Of a DNA stretch of 33,713 nucleotides, positions 6,281 through 31,897 are shown one piece after another. A program made the position numbers and the translations under genes. This stretch comes from Thiobacillaceae bacterium. Its GTDB lineage: Bacteria > Pseudomonadota > Gammaproteobacteria > Burkholderiales > Thiobacillaceae. The notes beneath the pieces are model-generated. The model ran no database searches and was not told where the DNA came from. It saw only the letters and a program-made list of their open reading frames with translations. The stretch's first letter is position 1; each line of letters opens with the position of its first letter. The stretch lies in NCBI GenBank assembly GCA_025054655.1, contig JANWZL010000143.1, forward strand, positions 1 to 33,713, read 5' to 3'.

Positions 6281-6807
6281 CGGTCGTAGAGGGCCAATTG
6301 TTTGTCCCAACTGCCCTGCGCGCGCATGATCAGCTCGCAGACCTCGCGCACGGCTCCGCGTCCGGCCTGTGCCCGGGTGACGTAATGCGCGCGGTCGCGG
6401 ACCAGTTCGGGCGCGTGCGGCACCGAAAGGGCCAGTCCGCAGCGGCGCAGGACCGGCAGATCGACGATGTCGTCGCCCATGTAGGCGGTCTGTGCCGCCG
6501 CAAGCCCGGTCTCCGCCAACAGGGCCTGGTAGGGCAGCAGCTTGTCGTCGGCGCCCTGGAAGATGCGGTCTATGCCCAGGTTCCTCGCCCGGTGCAGCAC
6601 CACCTGCGAGGTGCGGCCGGTGATGATGGCCGCCTCCACCCCGCTGGCGCGCAGCATCTTGATGCCATGGCCGTCGAGCGAATTGAAGGCCTTGTATTCC
6701 TGGCCGTCGTCGCCGTAGAACAGGCTGCCGTCGGTGAGCACGCCGTCGACGTCGAAGATGATCAGCCGCACCTGCGCCGCCCGCTGGTAGACCGCCTGTA
6801 GCTCCAT
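6277..6807 (-). CDS. kdsC: 3-deoxy-D-manno-octulosonate 8-phosphate phosphatase (HAD family)
   Basis: 176 aa; LIIFDVDGVLTDGSLFYGDDGQEYKAFNSLDGHGIKML; GDDIVDLPVL. Confidence 0.96.
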   Translation of the reverse strand: MELQAVYQRAAQVRLIIFDVDGVLTDGSLFYGDDGQEYKAFNSLDGHGIKMLRASGVEAAIITGRTSQVVLHRARNLGIDRIFQGADDKLLPYQALLAETGLAAAQTAYMGDDIVDLPVLRRCGLALSVPHAPELVRDRAHYVTRAQAGRGAVREVCELIMRAQGSWDKQLALYDR

Positions 6808-17675: not shown

Positions 17676-17810
17676 CTAGGGAAACCCTGCAAAACCGTTG
17701 CGAGCGGCTTATGGGCAAAGCGCACGCAGCGCAAGCCGCGAGACATCACAAGAAGTCAGGCGAGGCAGCCGAGCACCGCGCAACGCCGCCATCCGGCCGC
17801 ACAGCAGGTT
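17676..17810. repeat. Structured intergenic element with imperfect terminal inverted repeats (MITE/REP-like candidate)
   Basis: Ends read CTAGGGAAACCCTGC (left) and, reverse-complemented, CTGAATAACCTGC (right). Internal hairpins AGGG-AAA-CCCT, CGGCTT...AAGCCG and GCGC-ACGCA-GCGC. No convincing ORF. No second copy found by eye in this window. Confidence 0.4.
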
Positions 17811-18258
17811 ATTCAGAGGTCTCCCAGGTCTCGTCGGCCGGACCGCCCACTACCTGGGCCACCACCTCAGCGGGGAAACCGCGCCCGAGCAGGAAGCGGT
17901 ACTGGCGGGCGCGCTCGCGCGCCTGCGTGGCCACCACACCGAAACGCCTGGCCCACAGCGCGCGACAGGCCTCGAGGTCGTGCGCGCGGGCGCTGGCCAC
18001 GCTGGCGGCGATCAGCTCGGCAGACAGGCCCTGCTGGCGCAAGCTGTGCTCGATCCGGCGGCTGCCCTGGCGACCGACCTTGGCCTGCAACACGGCCTCA
18101 GCATAGCGCGCATCCGACAGCCAGCCCTCGCCCTGCAGCGCATCGAGCAGGGCCTCGATCTCATCCGCGCGGCCATATGGCGCGAGCTTGCGCTTGAGCT
18201 CCGCCCGGCTCCTTTCGCGCCGGGCGAGTAGCCGCAGGGCGCGCGCGCGCAGGTCCAC
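17809..18258 (-). CDS. recX: Regulatory protein RecX
   Basis: 149 aa, GTG start; ALRLLARRERSRAELKRKLAPYG...SDARYAEAVLQAKVGRQGSRRIEHSLRQQGL; 4 nt downstream of the recA stop. Confidence 0.94.
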   Translation of the reverse strand: MDLRARALRLLARRERSRAELKRKLAPYGRADEIEALLDALQGEGWLSDARYAEAVLQAKVGRQGSRRIEHSLRQQGLSAELIAASVASARAHDLEACRALWARRFGVVATQARERARQYRFLLGRGFPAEVVAQVVGGPADETWETSE

Positions 18259-18262
18259 CCGT

Positions 18263-19291
<1,029 letters not shown>

Positions 19292-19307
19292 GCTCTGTCC
19301 CTTGTCT

Positions 19308-19321
19308 CGAACGGAAGTTCG
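19308..19321. promoter_or_regulatory. Candidate LexA/SOS box upstream of recA, Gram-positive-type CGAAC-N4-GTTCG
   Basis: Plus strand reads CGAACGGAAGTTCG, perfect 5-bp inverted arms with a 4-nt centre, beginning 17 nt upstream of the recA ATG. I saw no CTGT-N8-ACAG (E. coli type) box in the recA upstream gap. Confidence 0.6.
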
Positions 19322-19352
19322 ATGATAATCCGGTTTCGTCCAACTCGTGCGT

Positions 19353-19847
19353 CTATTGTACGCGCTCCAGCATCCCCTGTAAGGCGTGGGCCACCGATTG
19401 CGCGCGTATGCCGCGCCGGTCGCCGGTAAAACGCAGGGTCTGGCTGTCCACCCGGCCTGTGTGCAGGGCCCAGGCGAAGCAGACCGTGCCCACCGGTTTG
19501 TCCGGCGTGCCGCCGCCGGGCCCGGCGATGCCGGAGATGGCGAAGGCAGCCTGCGCCCGGCTGTGGGCGAGCGCCCCCAGGGCCATCTCGCGCACCGTCG
19601 GCTCGCTCACCGCCCCGTGCACGGCGAGCGTGGTCTCGCGCACCCCCAGCAACTCCAGCTTGGCGGCGTTGCTGTAGGTGACGAAACCGCGGTCGAACCA
19701 GGCCGAGCTACCGGCGATGGCGGTGATGGCCTGGGCGGCCCAACCGCCGGTGCAGGACTCGGCGCAAGCAAGTAGCCAGCCGCGCGCGGCCAGGGCCTGC
19801 CCCAGGCGGCCGGCGATGGCCTCCAGGTCCTCCTGCGTCACATCCAT
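19353..19847 (-). CDS. pncC: CinA C-terminal domain protein / nicotinamide-nucleotide amidase (PncC-type)
   Basis: [69 protein letters not shown]...[23 protein letters not shown]; immediately upstream of recA. Confidence 0.95.
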
Positions 19848-23939: not shown

Positions 23940-26312
23940 ATGACACTAGCTTGCCTGCGCAATTTCGGACCTCGCCTTCGAACCGCTGCGTCTGCATGCC
24001 TACTGCCCTGGCTATGGGCCGCAGCCTGTCTCGGCTGGCTTGCGCTCGCCAGCCTGCCGGTGGACATCCACAGCCAGGGATGGCTCGCCGTGGGTGCCTT
24101 GACCGTGCTGTTTACTCTGCGCAGTCCGGCGCGTAAACGCCCCATGTGGCGGCTGACCTTCCTCGTCCTGGCAGGACTACTTACCGCCCGCTATCTGTAT
24201 TGGCGCGCCACCGAGACCTTGGTGGTGACGGACCCCTTTTCCACCCTGGCCATGCTCGCCCTGTTCCTGGCCGAGCTCTACGCGGTGGCCATCTTCTTCT
24301 TGGGCATATTCGTCAATGTCATGCCCTTGCACCGCGTACTGCCCACACTGCCCGCAGACCGCACGCGCTGGCCGACTGTGGACGTACTCATCCCCACCTA
24401 CGACGAAGACCCGGAGTTGCTGCAGACCACGCTCATCGCCGCGCTCAACATGCGTTACGCCCCAGGGCGCATGCAGGTCTATCTGCTCGACGATGGCGGC
24501 ACTGACCAGAAGTGCAACGACCCCGATCCGATCAAGGCCATGGCGGCGCGGCTGCGCCGTGAGCAGCTGCAAGCTTTGTGTGCGCGGGTAGGGGCGCACT
24601 ATCTCACCAGGGCGCGCAACGTACACGCCAAGGCGGGCAATCTCAACGCCGCTTTGGCGCACATCGACGGTGAGCTGATCGTCGTGCTGGATGCCGACCA
24701 CGTGCCAACCGCCGATTTCCTCGCGCGCACCGTGGGCGCCTTCCTGGCCGACGAACGCCTCTTTCTCGTACAGACTCCACACTTCTTCGTCAACGCCGAC
24801 CCGGCCGAGCACAATCTGCGCATCTTCGGCCGTATGCCGCCGGAGAACGACATGTTCTACGGTGCTATCCAGCATGGGCTGGACTTTTGGCAGTCCTCCT
24901 TCTTCTGCGGCTCAGCCGCAGTACTGCGCCGCAAGGCCCTGGACGAGGTGGGCGGCTTCACCGGCGAGACCATCACCGAAGATGCCGAGACCGCCCTGGA
25001 ACTGCATAGCCGCGGCTGGCGCAGCCTTTACTACGGCAGGCCCCTGATCTCCGGGCTGCAGCCGGAGACCTATGCCGGCTTCATCACCCAGCGGGTGCGC
25101 TGGGCGCAGGGGATGCTACAGCTGCTGCTGCTCAAAAACCCGCTACGCCGTCCGGGGCTCAAACCCTGGCAACGCTTGGGATATCTCAACAGCAGCGCTT
25201 TCTGGCTCTTTCCTTATGCTCGCCTCGTCTTCCTGCTCGTGCCCTCGGCCTGGCTGATCTTTGGCCTGCAGATCTATCACGCCAATCTCGCGCAGTTCGC
25301 CGCTTACACCCTGCCGCACCTGGCTGCGGTAGTGCTTGCCGGCCACCTCCTCTATGGCCGCGTGCGCTGGAGCTTCGTGTCCGAGCTGTACGAGATGCTG
25401 CAATCCTTCTATTGCCTGCGCGGCCTCAATCAGGTCCTGCGCAACCCGCGCGCGCCGCGCTTCAAGGTCACTCCCAAGGGCGAGGTACATTACCGCGACT
25501 ACGTCTCCTCTTTGGCCAAACCCTTCTACCTGATCTACACCCTAGCTTGGGTGTCGATCGCCTGGGGGATATGGCGTTGGCTGGAGCAGCCGCTCACACG
25601 CGAGGTAACCGCCATCACGCTGGGCTGGGAGGTATTCAACCTGCTGCTGTTACACGGTGTGCTGGGGGCGATGTACGAACGCAGACAACGCCGTGGGGCG
25701 CCGCGTGTTGGCGTGCGCGAAGCAGCACGCCTGACCGGGGCCTTTGGCACAGCGCTGGAGGTCCGCATCGTCGATGTCTCCGCAAGCGGGCTGCAGCTCG
25801 CATACGACCCAGCGCAGTCGCTGCCGGATGGACCTTTGCATCTTGAGCTTACACCGGCCGCCTTAGGCCGCCCGGTCCACCTGCCTGTGATCCGCGTGTG
25901 GCACAGGCCGGGGGCGTTGGGGCTGAAGTTTGCACCCAAGGGTCTGGAGCAGCAGCGCGAGATCGTCGCCCTGGCCTACGGCGACAGCCAGCGCTGGCTG
26001 CAGATACAGAATGCGCGTCGGGACGAGGCGGAGCGGGTCGGCGTCCTGCGCGCCTTCTTTTTGCTCGTGGGTGTGGGTGCGCGCGGCGCATTCCATCACT
26101 TACTTGCCCTGCTCAGCGAACTTATCATCTGGCTCACCCGCCGTGACACACGCGCCAAGGCGCGCGCAAGTGCCAAAGTACAGGCCAACTGGCTCAAAGG
26201 CGCAGACCACACCGCTCCAGCCAAGCTTGTTCCATCCGATCATCTGGATGTGCAGGACGCGTCTGTGCCTACCCTCACAAACAACCCACTGGTCGTCGTG
26301 GAAACAACATGA
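23940..26312 (+). CDS. bcsA: Cellulose synthase catalytic subunit BcsA (UDP-forming) with C-terminal PilZ domain
   Basis: 790 aa; VDVLIPTYDEDPELL, VLDADHVPT, TITEDAETALELHSRGW, QRVRWAQGM (QxxRW); PilZ RGAPR (RxxxR) ... VDVSASG (DxSxxG). Confidence 0.97.
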   Translation: MTLACLRNFGPRLRTAASACLLPWLWAAACLGWLALASLPVDIHSQGWLAVGALTVLFTLRSPARKRPMWRLTFLVLAGLLTARYLYWRATETLVVTDPFSTLAMLALFLAELYAVAIFFLGIFVNVMPLHRVLPTLPADRTRWPTVDVLIPTYDEDPELLQTTLIAALNMRYAPGRMQVYLLDDGGTDQKCNDPDPIKAMAARLRREQLQALCARVGAHYLTRARNVHAKAGNLNAALAHIDGELIVVLDADHVPTADFLARTVGAFLADERLFLVQTPHFFVNADPAEHNLRIFGRMPPENDMFYGAIQHGLDFWQSSFFCGSAAVLRRKALDEVGGFTGETITEDAETALELHSRGWRSLYYGRPLISGLQPETYAGFITQRVRWAQGMLQLLLLKNPLRRPGLKPWQRLGYLNSSAFWLFPYARLVFLLVPSAWLIFGLQIYHANLAQFAAYTLPHLAAVVLAGHLLYGRVRWSFVSELYEMLQSFYCLRGLNQVLRNPRAPRFKVTPKGEVHYRDYVSSLAKPFYLIYTLAWVSIAWGIWRWLEQPLTREVTAITLGWEVFNLLLLHGVLGAMYERRQRRGAPRVGVREAARLTGAFGTALEVRIVDVSASGLQLAYDPAQSLPDGPLHLELTPAALGRPVHLPVIRVWHRPGALGLKFAPKGLEQQREIVALAYGDSQRWLQIQNARRDEAERVGVLRAFFLLVGVGARGAFHHLLALLSELIIWLTRRDTRAKARASAKVQANWLKGADHTAPAKLVPSDHLDVQDASVPTLTNNPLVVVETT

Positions 26313-28501
26313 AACCCTGCCTCATTGCCGGCCTTCTCGCTCTCTGCCTCAGCCTACCGCTCGGTGCTGCCCTACCACCGCCCCCGTCCGAGCCGACCGA
26401 CACGGCCGCCGCTCTGCAGCACTTCATGCCTGCGCCCACCCCCATAGACCTCCGCGGTGCTCATGCCCGCGCAGAGCTGGCTATCCCCGTGGCAGCAGGG
26501 ATCGAGCCCCAGCGATTGACCCTTTATCTTGCGGCGGCCAACTCTGTTGCCCTACGACCCAACCGCTCCGTCTTGCGTGTGCTGCTGGACGATGTCCTAG
26601 TGGCGCAGATTCCGCTTGATCCCAGGCGCCCGCGTATCGAGGCCGAGATCGAACTGCCGGTGCAGGGGCTTGAAGCCGGTTATCACCGGCTCGTGTTCGA
26701 CGTCGCGCAGCACTACACCGAAGATTGCGAGGACCCGCACGCCCCCGAGCTGTGGACGCAGATCGACACGCGGCGCTCCTGGCTCGCCTTGCAATGGCGC
26801 TGGCGCGATGAACCGTATACCGTGGCCGTACCCGAGCGCCTGTTCGACCCCAAGCGTTGGGGAGTGCATCGGCTGACCATTGCCACCCTGGGCGAGATGA
26901 CCCCAGAACTTGCCCGCTTAGGCGCCCTTGCCAGTCAGGTCGCGGCCCTGCATCTGCGCTATCGCCCGCTGCAAGTGCTTCACCGCCGCGTGCAGGCAGA
27001 GGAACTGCAGACCCTGATGCAGCTGGCCGAGGGCCCTATCGTCTTACTCGCCCCACCCGGCCGGCCCGTGGTCCTGCCTGGACAAGCCGCTCCGGATGCG
27101 GCCACCCTCAGCGTGCACCGCACCAATACAGGTTGGCCGCTGCTGCGGGTGCAAGGCACGACCACTGAGATGGAACGCGCCCTGCGGGCCCTGCAGCTGA
27201 CCCGCACGCCCCTGCCCGAACGCACCCAGGTCCATGTGCTTGCAGTGGATGCGCCCGTAGGGTCTCGGCGCACGTTGGAGACAGGGCCGGTCAGCCTGCG
27301 TGAGCTGGGTTGGACGCACGACTGGGCCGTGCGGGGCATGTACGCCAGCCGTAAGCTGGAGTTCAGGCTGCCGGCTGACTTCTACACGCCACGCACGGAC
27401 TTTCTCACCCTGCGGCTCAACCTGGCCTACGGCGCCGGGTTGCGTGCGGATTCTGTGCTCAACGTGCTTGTCAACGGGCGCTTTGCTCAAGCGGTAGCCC
27501 TCGATCAGCGCGGTGGTGCCCGTTACGAGGACTATCAGGTGCGTATCCCCCTAGAGTTGCTGCAGCCTGGAGACAACACGCTCGAATTCGCCGTCAGCCT
27601 GGTGCCAGCTGAGGGCGGTCGCTGCCTCATCCAGTCCGCCGAGGGGCTGCGCCTGACCCTGCGGGCCGACTCCACCTTGCGCCTGCCTTCCTACGCGCCG
27701 GTGGCCGCCGTGCCCGACTTACGTCTACTTGCCCGCACCGCCTACCCTTATGCGCAAACCTCCGGTACGAGGTTATGGCTGGGGGATACCAACAGCTCTA
27801 CATTGGGGGCAGCATGGACTCTACTCGCGCGTCTGGCCCAGGCCAAAGGCGATTTGTTGCCCCTGACCCAGGTCGTCCTCAGTGGTCGACTGCCCCCCGC
27901 CGATGCAGACATCATCCTGGTCGGGGCACCGCATCAGCTGCCCTCAGACTTGAATAGCCTGCCACCTGTACTGAATAAAGGGCGTATCCTGCACGCGCTG
28001 GCCGACACAAGCGCAGAATCCGGCTTCGGGTCCGTGCAGGGGTGGGTTGCATGGTTTAACTGGCTCGCACGCGGTCTACCTGCGGTGCAGGCGCATCCCT
28101 ATCCTGCTCGTGTGGGCGTGGACCCGCCGCTGCTGGGACAACAGGCGGCCTTGCTGCAATGGGTGGATGAACAGGGTCGTCTGCTCACCTGGCTGACGGT
28201 CGAGGATGAGGCCTTATACGCCGAGCGTATGCGTGAATTGATCGGAGCCGGACTGTGGGGCCGACTGCGAGGTGATCTCTTCGTTTGGCGCGACGCTGAC
28301 ACCGCCCATGCCAGCCGCGTAGGCGCCACGGCACTGCGCGGCAGGGCCGGTATGTGGATGCGCCTGAGCTATGTATTCAGCCACCGCCCCGTACTGTGGG
28401 TGCTCGTCGGCCTGGTGGTGGTGGCCCTGGCCTGGAGCACGCACCGTCTGCTGCTGCGCTTCAAGGCCAGGCACCACGCCGGCATACGCGAGGAGGACTA
28501 A
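26309..28501 (+). CDS. bcsB: Cellulose biosynthesis cyclic-di-GMP-binding regulatory protein BcsB
   Basis: 730 aa; signal peptide MKPCLIAGLLALCLSLPLGAA, long periplasmic beta-rich region, single C-terminal TM (VLWVLVGLVVVALAWSTHRLLL); ATGA overlap with bcsA. Confidence 0.92.
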   Translation: MKPCLIAGLLALCLSLPLGAALPPPPSEPTDTAAALQHFMPAPTPIDLRGAHARAELAIPVAAGIEPQRLTLYLAAANSVALRPNRSVLRVLLDDVLVAQIPLDPRRPRIEAEIELPVQGLEAGYHRLVFDVAQHYTEDCEDPHAPELWTQIDTRRSWLALQWRWRDEPYTVAVPERLFDPKRWGVHRLTIATLGEMTPELARLGALASQVAALHLRYRPLQVLHRRVQAEELQTLMQLAEGPIVLLAPPGRPVVLPGQAAPDAATLSVHRTNTGWPLLRVQGTTTEMERALRALQLTRTPLPERTQVHVLAVDAPVGSRRTLETGPVSLRELGWTHDWAVRGMYASRKLEFRLPADFYTPRTDFLTLRLNLAYGAGLRADSVLNVLVNGRFAQAVALDQRGGARYEDYQVRIPLELLQPGDNTLEFAVSLVPAEGGRCLIQSAEGLRLTLRADSTLRLPSYAPVAAVPDLRLLARTAYPYAQTSGTRLWLGDTNSSTLGAAWTLLARLAQAKGDLLPLTQVVLSGRLPPADADIILVGAPHQLPSDLNSLPPVLNKGRILHALADTSAESGFGSVQGWVAWFNWLARGLPAVQAHPYPARVGVDPPLLGQQAALLQWVDEQGRLLTWLTVEDEALYAERMRELIGAGLWGRLRGDLFVWRDADTAHASRVGATALRGRAGMWMRLSYVFSHRPVLWVLVGLVVVALAWSTHRLLLRFKARHHAGIREED

Positions 28502-28502
28502 A

Positions 28503-29495
28503 GTGCGGCTGATCCTGCTGCTGGCGCTGTTGATCTCGATCGCGCCCGCTGTGCACGCCCTAGACGGGGGGCAATGGCGGCTATGGCGCGCACGTTTTGT
28601 TGATGTGCAGGGCCGTGTGATCGATAACGGGCAAGGTGGGGTGAGCACCTCCGAGGGGCAGGGTTATGGCATGTTGCTGGCAGCAGCGGCTGGTGATGCC
28701 GTCAGCTTTGAACGCATCTGGCGCTGGACCCGTCGTCATCTCGCCGTACGTAACGATGGATTGCACGCTTGGCGCTACCACCCCCTGCGTGGGGTAGAGG
28801 ACGATAACGCCGCCACGGACGGCGACTTACTCATCGCCTGGGCGCTGGCCTGCGCCGCGGAACGTTTTGGCCGGGCAGAATATAGGACACAGGCCCAGGC
28901 ACTGGCCGTGACCATCCGACGACGGCTCGTGGTGGACAGCCCCTCGGGCCCCATCCTCAAACCCGGTCCGCGCGGCTTCGACCGCCCTGAAGGTCCGGTC
29001 GTCAACTTGTCTTATTGGGTCTTCCCCGCCTTCGATGCCCTCGCCCGCATCGACCCCGATCCGGTATGGCCCGCCTTGCGTGCAAGCGGCTTGCACCTGT
29101 TACGCCAGGCGCGTTTCGGTCGCTGGGGCTTACCGCCCGACTGGTTGCAACTCGGGTCGATCCTGCGCCCTGCTGCCGGCTGGCCCGCGCGCTTCGGCTA
29201 CGATGCGATGCGTATCCCCCTTTACCTGATCTGGGCGGGCGAACGCGACGAGGAGCTGCTCGCGCCCTTCCGTAACTTCTGGGCCACCTATGCCTGCACG
29301 GGTAGGCTGCCCGCCTGGACCGACTTCGAGCAGGATGCCGTCGATGCCTGGGGTGAGTTCGCCGGGGTGCGGGCCATCGCCAAACTGCTGGGTTTACGCC
29401 TGCCTGGCCCTGAACCTACCCTAGACCGACTGGACTATTATCCCGCCGTCCTGGTCCTGCTCGCAGACCTGGCGGTCAGCAAGGGCCCGTTATGA
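28503..29495 (+). CDS. bcsZ: Endo-1,4-beta-glucanase BcsZ (GH8)
   Basis: GTG start 2 nt after the bcsB stop; VRLILLLALLISIAPAVHALDGGQWRLWRARFVD...VSTSEGQGYGMLLAAAAGD (GH8 signature), FGYDAMRIPLYLIWAGERDEELLAPFRNFWA. Confidence 0.94.
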   Translation: MRLILLLALLISIAPAVHALDGGQWRLWRARFVDVQGRVIDNGQGGVSTSEGQGYGMLLAAAAGDAVSFERIWRWTRRHLAVRNDGLHAWRYHPLRGVEDDNAATDGDLLIAWALACAAERFGRAEYRTQAQALAVTIRRRLVVDSPSGPILKPGPRGFDRPEGPVVNLSYWVFPAFDALARIDPDPVWPALRASGLHLLRQARFGRWGLPPDWLQLGSILRPAAGWPARFGYDAMRIPLYLIWAGERDEELLAPFRNFWATYACTGRLPAWTDFEQDAVDAWGEFAGVRAIAKLLGLRLPGPEPTLDRLDYYPAVLVLLADLAVSKGPL

Positions 29496-31897
29496 GAGCC
29501 GCCTTGTTGCCCCTGGTTTGGTGTGTCCTGACCGCCCACGGAGCGGCCCCGACCCTGTCGTCGTGGCCCGAACCTGCCCTGCGACTGCGCCAGGAGCACG
29601 ACCCCGGGCTCAGGCTCGATCGCTCGGCTGAGCCTGTACGCATGCGCGGTGTCTCGGCAGAGATACCGACACCCCTGCCTGCGACAGCGCGACGGTTCAA
29701 GGTGCGCAGCCAAAACAAGCCGCCACTGGCAAATGCAACGGCGGCTTCAGCGCCTTCATCCCCCCCACAGCCCGACCCGCTCGAACGCTTGCGCCTCGCT
29801 TTAGACGAGGCCGAACGCGCCGTGCCCAAGCCGCAGTTCCTGGACGAGGCGCTGACAGCGGCCGAGATGCTGCCTGCCGACAGTGACCTGCTACAAAGGC
29901 TGGGTTGGATCATGTTGAACAGCGGTCGCGTGCAAACGGCCGCACGTCTCTTCACACAAGCCCTGGCGCGCGACGAGACCATGCACACTGCCCGCCTGGG
30001 CCTGGCCGAGGCGCTGGCCAGGCAGGGCGCGCACGCACGCGCCCATGCACTGCTCTTGGGACTGCCTGAGGCTGCGAAAACACGGCGAGACCTGGCTGAC
30101 ACCCTGGCCGAGGCGGCTCGTCAGCGCGGCGAGGACGACGAGGAACGGCGTTGGTTGCTCGCCGCTCTGGAGGAGGCCGGAGACGATGCCGGCCTGCGCG
30201 AGCGGCTGGCCTGGAACGCCGTACGCACACGTCGCTGGGACGAGGCCGTCATTGCCTTTCGCCACCTGCTGACTACGGCCGCCGACGACCGCTGGCGCGA
30301 GGGCCTGGCCACCGCCCTGCAAGGGCTGGGTAAGCTGGAAGAGGCCTACCGCACCCTCGCCGGCCTACCCGCGGCGGCAGGCTGGCGGGCAGCGCTTGCC
30401 AATGAACTGGCAGAGTCCGCGCACCGTGCCGACCGGATCGAGGCCGAACGTGCCTGGTTACAAGTCGCCCTGGCGGAAGGCGGCGAAGAGGCAGGACTCA
30501 TGCTGCGTTTAGGACATAACGCCGCCGCGCGGGGCGAGCGCGATGAAGCCCTCAACTGGTGGGCGCGCGCCTACGCCCTACGGCCGGATGACGTAACGGC
30601 TGAGGCCTACGCCGAGGGCCTATGGGTGGTCGGACGGCGACAGATGTTGGAGCGACTCGCGGCACAGGACCATGGGCCCCTGGCTAAGGCCTGGCGCATG
30701 CGCATGGCCCGCGCGCTCCTGCAGCAGGGGCAGGCCCGCGCGGCCGCCTCCATCGCCCCTCAGGATGCCCAGCCAGAGCTTGCGGGCGTGCTCGCACCAC
30801 GCCTGGGGTTAGGCATTGCCCAGCGTGCCAAGGCAGGCAGCCGGGGCGGTAGCCGCCTACACCTGCGGCTGTCCCCACAGCTGAGCTATGCCAGGGTCTA
30901 TGCCGGCGGATGGTTGGAGCTCGAGCTGAGCGGAGGCACCGTCGATGCCGGTAAGGTCGAAGTGCCTTTCGGCTCCGCGCTCAGCGGTCAGCCTGCCGTG
31001 TATACGCGCGAGGTGGGCCTGACTGCCATACAGCTCACCTGGACCCATCTGGGTGCCGCCGGCGGCCCTCTGCTGCGCCTTGGCAGCACACCCATCGGAG
31101 GACCTGTGCCAGCCACGGCCACATTCTCGCTCGGGTGGCAGGTGCGCCAGTCGGGGCACGATTGGCAGGCGGCGCTTTATCGTGAGCCGGTGCGTGACTC
31201 CGTGCTGTCGCTAGTGGGCCAGCGCGACTCGGGCAGCGGTGCGGCCTGGGGGCGTGTGCTGCGCCACGGCGTGCTGCTGGAGGGCCACCGCCAAATCGCT
31301 GCGGGACCATGGCGGCTGAGCGGGCAGCTACGCCTAGAATACCTGCAAGGCCAGGCCGTGGCCGATAACCGTCGCTTCGCCTTCTCGACCGGGTTGATGC
31401 GCGACCTCGGGGTGGAGGGCCTGCACTACCTGCAGCTTGGGCCGGTGATCAGATGGGAGGGCTACAGGCGCGACCTCTCCGCGTTCACCTGGGGGCATGG
31501 GGGTTATTTCAGCCCGCAGGCCTTCACCCAGCTGGGACTGGCCCTGCAGTTCGAAAGCGATGGCCCACCCGACCGGCGCTTTGCCGGCCGCTTGAACGCG
31601 CACCGGCAACGCATCGAGCGGGACGCCTCGCCTTGCCACCCCCTGCCCCCCCCGGCTGGGCCTACCACCTGCACCGGGGCCTACGCCGCCGAGCGTGCCG
31701 AGGGCTGGGCCGGTGAGATTGAGCTGCGCGTCGTGCTCCGACTCGCCCCTCGCTGGCACTTGGCCGCCAACGCCGGCTGGCGGGCCGGGCCGGCCTACCG
31801 CGACGCGGCCCTGGGGCTTACCCTCCACTATCTGTTCGAGCCGCAGACGAAGCTCCATCCGGAAGACCTGCCCGCGGGGTTCGGCGGGCTTTGGTAA
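29492..31897 (+). CDS. bcsC: BcsC-like cellulose export protein (periplasmic TPRs plus C-terminal outer-membrane beta-barrel), compact form
   Basis: 801 aa; signal peptide, TPR-like repeats (LLQRLGWIMLNSGRVQTAARLFTQALARDETMHTARLGLAEALARQG...), barrel-like C-terminus (LHLRLSPQLSYARVYAGG...DAALGLTLHYLFEP); ATGA overlap with bcsZ. Confidence 0.88.
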   Translation: MRAALLPLVWCVLTAHGAAPTLSSWPEPALRLRQEHDPGLRLDRSAEPVRMRGVSAEIPTPLPATARRFKVRSQNKPPLANATAASAPSSPPQPDPLERLRLALDEAERAVPKPQFLDEALTAAEMLPADSDLLQRLGWIMLNSGRVQTAARLFTQALARDETMHTARLGLAEALARQGAHARAHALLLGLPEAAKTRRDLADTLAEAARQRGEDDEERRWLLAALEEAGDDAGLRERLAWNAVRTRRWDEAVIAFRHLLTTAADDRWREGLATALQGLGKLEEAYRTLAGLPAAAGWRAALANELAESAHRADRIEAERAWLQVALAEGGEEAGLMLRLGHNAAARGERDEALNWWARAYALRPDDVTAEAYAEGLWVVGRRQMLERLAAQDHGPLAKAWRMRMARALLQQGQARAAASIAPQDAQPELAGVLAPRLGLGIAQRAKAGSRGGSRLHLRLSPQLSYARVYAGGWLELELSGGTVDAGKVEVPFGSALSGQPAVYTREVGLTAIQLTWTHLGAAGGPLLRLGSTPIGGPVPATATFSLGWQVRQSGHDWQAALYREPVRDSVLSLVGQRDSGSGAAWGRVLRHGVLLEGHRQIAAGPWRLSGQLRLEYLQGQAVADNRRFAFSTGLMRDLGVEGLHYLQLGPVIRWEGYRRDLSAFTWGHGGYFSPQAFTQLGLALQFESDGPPDRRFAGRLNAHRQRIERDASPCHPLPPPAGPTTCTGAYAAERAEGWAGEIELRVVLRLAPRWHLAANAGWRAGPAYRDAALGLTLHYLFEPQTKLHPEDLPAGFGGLW

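Follow-up and report, generated by a model that had tools for sequence, protein, structure and literature searches.

Canonical LexA repressors of beta- and gammaproteobacteria use the operator CTGT-N8-ACAG. A noncanonical LexA with the motif GAACGaaCGTTC has reportedly been described in members of the Gallionellales, Nitrosomonadales and Methylophilales. The box of the Bacillus DinR/LexA repressor is GAAC-N4-GTTC (PMC3323433), and UmuDAb of Acinetobacter, which is helped by DdrR and controls umuDC-type genes, has a large operator consisting of TTGA/TCAA arms and a GTWAC core (PMC11332147). PMC8565304 cites Sanchez-Alberola et al. 2015 (J Bacteriol 197:2622, PMID 25986903) for the noncanonical betaproteobacterial LexA. 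The circuit presented here is of this noncanonical betaproteobacterial kind, which was already described in related betaproteobacteria and is thus not unprecedented. Our data extend it to the Thiobacillaceae, in which it is patchily distributed beside the canonical LexA of sister genera and in which only some of the genera possessing this LexA exhibit a box at recA.

The window, i.e. the whole analyzed stretch of 33,713 nt, contains on its minus strand recA (18263-19291; 342 aa; TIGR02012, E 1.6e-174) and, 4 nt behind it, recX (17809-18258; 149 aa; NF001055, 149.5 bits, above the cut-off), which is probably cotranscribed with recA. A gap of 61 bp (19292-19352) separates recA from a cinA-like gene ending at 19353. 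Within this gap, reading of the sequence and a motif scan disclosed at 19308-19321 the plus-strand sequence CGAACGGAAGTTCG, corresponding to CGAACTTCCGTTCG on the strand of recA. The original prediction had placed a CGAAC-N4-GTTCG palindrome at exactly this site, and the match is indeed exact: the half-sites CGAAC and GTTCG are perfect, and the spacer TTCC is non-palindromic. The edge of the box nearest to recA is 17 positions away from the first base of the ATG, leaving 16 nt in between. No second exact match to CGAAC-N4-GTTCG exists in the window, in which five sites were counted when one mismatch was allowed (shuffle mean 0.81). Alignment of upstream regions revealed that the box adjoins TATCAT (19322-19327, minus strand), a putative -10 hexamer of recA, which in the relatives G001, G011 and G013 reads CATAAT. 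A consensus scan, which also requires a -35 region, did not report this hexamer. Because the box abuts the putative -10 region, its position would be suited to blocking the RNA polymerase. We are highly confident in predicting that the palindrome is the operator by which the only recognized LexA of the host, a noncanonical and autocleavable protein, represses recA and probably recX as well.

The LexA protein of the host comprises 194 aa and reached 95.2 bits against TIGR00498, which is below the cut-off of 110.95. Pfam assigned only Peptidase_S24 to it and gave no match to LexA_DNA_bind. Among solved structures, its peptidase domain scored best with UmuD. The cleavage site Ala77-Gly78 and the residues Ser113/Lys150 are present. 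In the AlphaFold2 model of a homologue with 80% identity (Prado227, L131), three helices and a wing precede the S24 fold, and the best match in the PDB was the full-length LexA of Thermotoga maritima (E 2.2e-15). The host LexA is a noncanonical one, in which a UmuD-like S24 peptidase domain is predicted to follow a LexA-like winged helix-turn-helix. The recognition helix, to which the original prediction had drawn attention, is located in the region SKSSVAALIARL and turned out to be closer to the Firmicutes sequence SSSTVHGHLARL of Peribacillus than to the proteobacterial SPNAAE type. In a quick tree (SH-aLRT support, no bootstrap), the protein formed a joint clade with LexA of Sideroxydans and Gallionella (SH-aLRT 89) inside a clade supported at 97, a grouping that also takes in LexA of Methylophilaceae and others. 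Canonical LexA (98) and two Firmicutes LexA proteins (99) constituted separate branches.

Compared with the described systems, the host circuit shares with that of Sideroxydans and Gallionella the LexA clade and the GAAC-N4-GTTC box at lexA. It also has the boxes at further SOS genes (recA and a DinB-like gene) and the residues for RecA-stimulated self-cleavage that a circuit of this kind would possess. It differs from that of Sideroxydans and Gallionella by its occurrence in the Thiobacillaceae, by a centre that is mostly GATC at lexA and at the polymerase gene, and by a recA box restricted to some genera. With the Bacillus DinR/LexA the host shares the operator pattern and, as mentioned, a similar recognition helix, but the Firmicutes proteins lie on another branch of the tree, and the host protein has the UmuD-like peptidase domain and lacks the Pfam LexA_DNA_bind match. 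Its assignment to the Firmicutes type was rejected since the operator fits but the branch does not. The canonical LexA of beta- and gammaproteobacteria has the same architecture and autoregulation; however, it is another repressor with an SPNAAE-type recognition helix and another operator. The host protein was not accepted as canonical either, given its TIGR00498 score, the lacking LexA_DNA_bind match and the absence of CTGT-N8-ACAG at lexA and recA. Unlike the operator of UmuDAb, the GAAC-N4-GTTC operator of the host does not comprise TTGA/TCAA arms with a GTWAC core.

To the places where the box should recur, the original prediction had counted the promoter of lexA and those of other SOS genes. 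The lexA promoter of the host does contain the same box, GAACGATCGTTC, 36 nt upstream of the start. The gene of a DinB-like Y-family polymerase is preceded by two tandem boxes in four genomes and by one box in a fifth. The host genome (G000), G001, G003 and G011 each contain three copies of GAACGWWCGTTC, and G013 contains one. All of these sites are located in lexA or polymerase promoters, those of the host being distributed as one at lexA and two at the DinB-like gene, and the reversed control gave no site in any of the five genomes. Thus, the expectation held for lexA and the polymerase gene, but not for recN and uvrA, whose promoters revealed no box; imuA was not found in the host genome, in which the search yielded only RecA/RadA cross-matches. 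As recN and uvrA are devoid of boxes, the regulon looks small. Targets were sought by the exact pattern and by family searches, and sites with one mismatch were surveyed in the window, so that the list of regulon members may be incomplete. The shorter pattern GAAC-N4-GTTC is present at 32 sites of the host genome compared to 14 for the control. Most of the 32 sites reside within genes, presumably by chance. The intergenic ones are those at recA, at lexA and at the polymerase gene (two boxes), one between hupB, a tRNA gene and ppiD, and two at contig edges or beside uncertain gene calls.

The site near hupB, CGAACGTGAGTTCG (L103:3076-3089; approximately 6575-6588 of host contig C114), is flanked by tRNA-Asp and a ppiD-like gene and lies downstream of the HU gene. 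It may possibly be another LexA site or a product of chance. Since it lies 16 nt after tRNA-Asp, we did not count it as a target despite its intergenic location.

The palindrome upstream of recA is very probably a binding site of the unusual host LexA. According to the proposed circuit, the repressor would recognize GAAC-N4-GTTC instead of CTGT-N8-ACAG, and a dimer bound next to the -10 region would keep the RNA polymerase off recA. Once DNA is damaged, RecA filaments would induce LexA to cleave itself at Ala77-Gly78 by means of the Ser113/Lys150 dyad, whereupon recA, lexA and the DinB-like polymerase gene would be released. Binding, repression, cleavage and induction are proposed by analogy with established LexA biology, the evidence itself consisting of sequences of draft genomes.

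The motif recurs in the recA promoters of G001 and G003, which belong to the genus of the host, and of G011 and G013, which represent two other genera, at a distance of 17-20 nt from the start codon. The box is thereby present in three genera. In an alignment anchored on the five boxes, the half-sites CGAAC and GTTCG were identical throughout, the central four bases differed (TTCC, TTTC, GATG, GATA and GACT), and nearly everything else in the flanks had changed. Invariant half-sites combined with a drifting centre and drifting flanks are what a binding site would be expected to show. The -10-anchored pattern CATAATCGAAC-N4-GTTCG was detected in only three genomes of the family, all of them in already known recA promoters. 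Six genomes (G005, G006, G012, G016, G017 and G024) encode a noncanonical LexA of the same type, yet have no box at recA. As several genera with this LexA lack it, the circuit does not invariably include the control of recA. This absence, together with a recA box whose centre is not the palindromic GATC found at lexA and the polymerase gene, would fit a circuit in which binding of the noncanonical LexA to the box brings about little or no repression of recA and whose main role is the control of lexA and the polymerase. We consider such a restricted role unlikely, since the half-sites are clearly conserved in those genera that have a recA box and since the position at the -10 region suits repression.

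A second S24-type repressor, either phage-like or UmuDAb-like, might use the box in place of the main LexA. Some relatives within the family do have more than one LexA/UmuD-type protein, and the host genome is a draft of 84% completeness. The LexA model, however, matched a single protein of the host (contig C52), and one LexA-type protein is likewise present in each of three congeners, among them a genome with a listed completeness of 100%. Moreover, the box precedes the gene of the main LexA itself, and the distant paralogues of other genera have none upstream, which makes this explanation very improbable. The original prediction had suggested either a host LexA with divergent specificity or a second LexA-like regulator. 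Its first part is supported by the boxes that precede lexA and the DinB-like gene and by the absence of CTGT-N8-ACAG, while the second regulator is not needed, as one LexA-type protein was found in the host and in each of the three congeners.

That the recA palindrome arose by chance and plays no regulatory role can be regarded as highly improbable. The pattern as such does emerge fortuitously, as illustrated by the predominance of intragenic sites among the GAAC-N4-GTTC matches. From the density of CGAAC-N4-GTTCG in the host genome (8 exact sites in 2.21 Mb), however, an expectation of 2.2e-4 results for the 61-bp gap, in agreement with the original estimate of well below 1 in 1000. The conservation of the box, with its position kept and its half-sites invariant in four further genomes, speaks against chance, as does the recurrence of the motif at lexA and twice at the translesion polymerase gene. 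Finally, a canonical LexA acting through CTGT-N8-ACAG, with the palindrome being a relic or belonging to an unrelated regulator, is hardly credible, for although canonical LexA and such boxes exist in other Thiobacillaceae, a survey of profile matches found no canonical LexA in the host genus, and CTGT-N8-ACAG, named beforehand as contrary evidence if present at lexA and SOS genes, was found neither in the promoters of the host lexA and DinB-like genes nor within 200 bp upstream of recA. With 2 sites in the host genome against 7 for the reversed control, this pattern is not enriched and was rejected as the true operator.

To compare LexA types and box types, we inspected the promoters of full-length lexA genes from 61 relatives within 45 nt of the start. 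GAAC-N4-GTTC preceded 16 of 17 noncanonical genes (12 of 13 in the Thiobacillaceae and all four from elsewhere). The same stretch upstream of 20 canonical genes contained an exact CTGT-N8-ACAG in 12 cases and GAAC-N4-GTTC in none. Among the relatives, the type of the box follows the type of LexA. Within the family (117 genomes), noncanonical LexA is encoded by 26 genomes from 8 of 12 genera. The box was detected at 24 of the 25 lexA genes of the closer type, the exception being that of G007, whose LexA is fast-evolving (branch 0.76). Five more distant paralogues of the LexA/UmuD type in the Thiobacillaceae exhibited no box upstream. These paralogues (L301-L304 and L300) are of the RDPEHLAKLRDFY type in G067, G073 and G079 and of another type in G097. 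Eight further genomes (G004, G015, G022, G035, G036, G025, G032 and G034) yielded only weak S24 peptidase matches and no full LexA of either type. They may be without a LexA-type SOS repressor or may be incomplete.

Homologues were also encountered in Magnetococcia, Nitrospirota, Omnitrophota, Lentisphaerota, Verrucomicrobiota and Patescibacteria, where GAAC-N4-GTTC frequently lies near the start. On individual contigs (L131-L183), the pattern was seen near LexA-like starts in Patescibacteria, Omnitrophota, Lentisphaerota, Nitrospirales, Magnetaquicoccus and Deltaproteobacteria. This spread over phyla hints at an old, widely exchanged LexA lineage; earlier publications on Patescibacteria and Verrucomicrobia may have treated a part of it already. 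Somewhat short of an even chance, and therefore tentatively, we suggest that a LexA lineage closer to UmuD than to the canonical protein and tied to GAAC-N4-GTTC extends over the Betaproteobacteria and the six groups listed first, that it alternates with canonical LexA in the Thiobacillaceae, and that recA enters or leaves its regulon from genus to genus. If this holds true, the family would provide a naturally occurring series in which the exchange of a master repressor and of its operators can be followed.

The Thiobacillaceae very probably harbor an SOS circuit whose operator is of the Bacillus style, beside the canonical CTGT-N8-ACAG circuits of this family. Near relatives differ in which of the two repressors they have and in the presence of a recA box, so that the rewiring of the response to DNA damage can be put to a practical test. 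Scans for the SOS-box motif of E. coli would miss the regulon in such genomes. Elsewhere in the window, positions 23940-31897 are occupied by a cellulose synthase operon encoding a BcsA-like glycosyltransferase with PilZ, BcsB and a BcsC-like outer-membrane protein.
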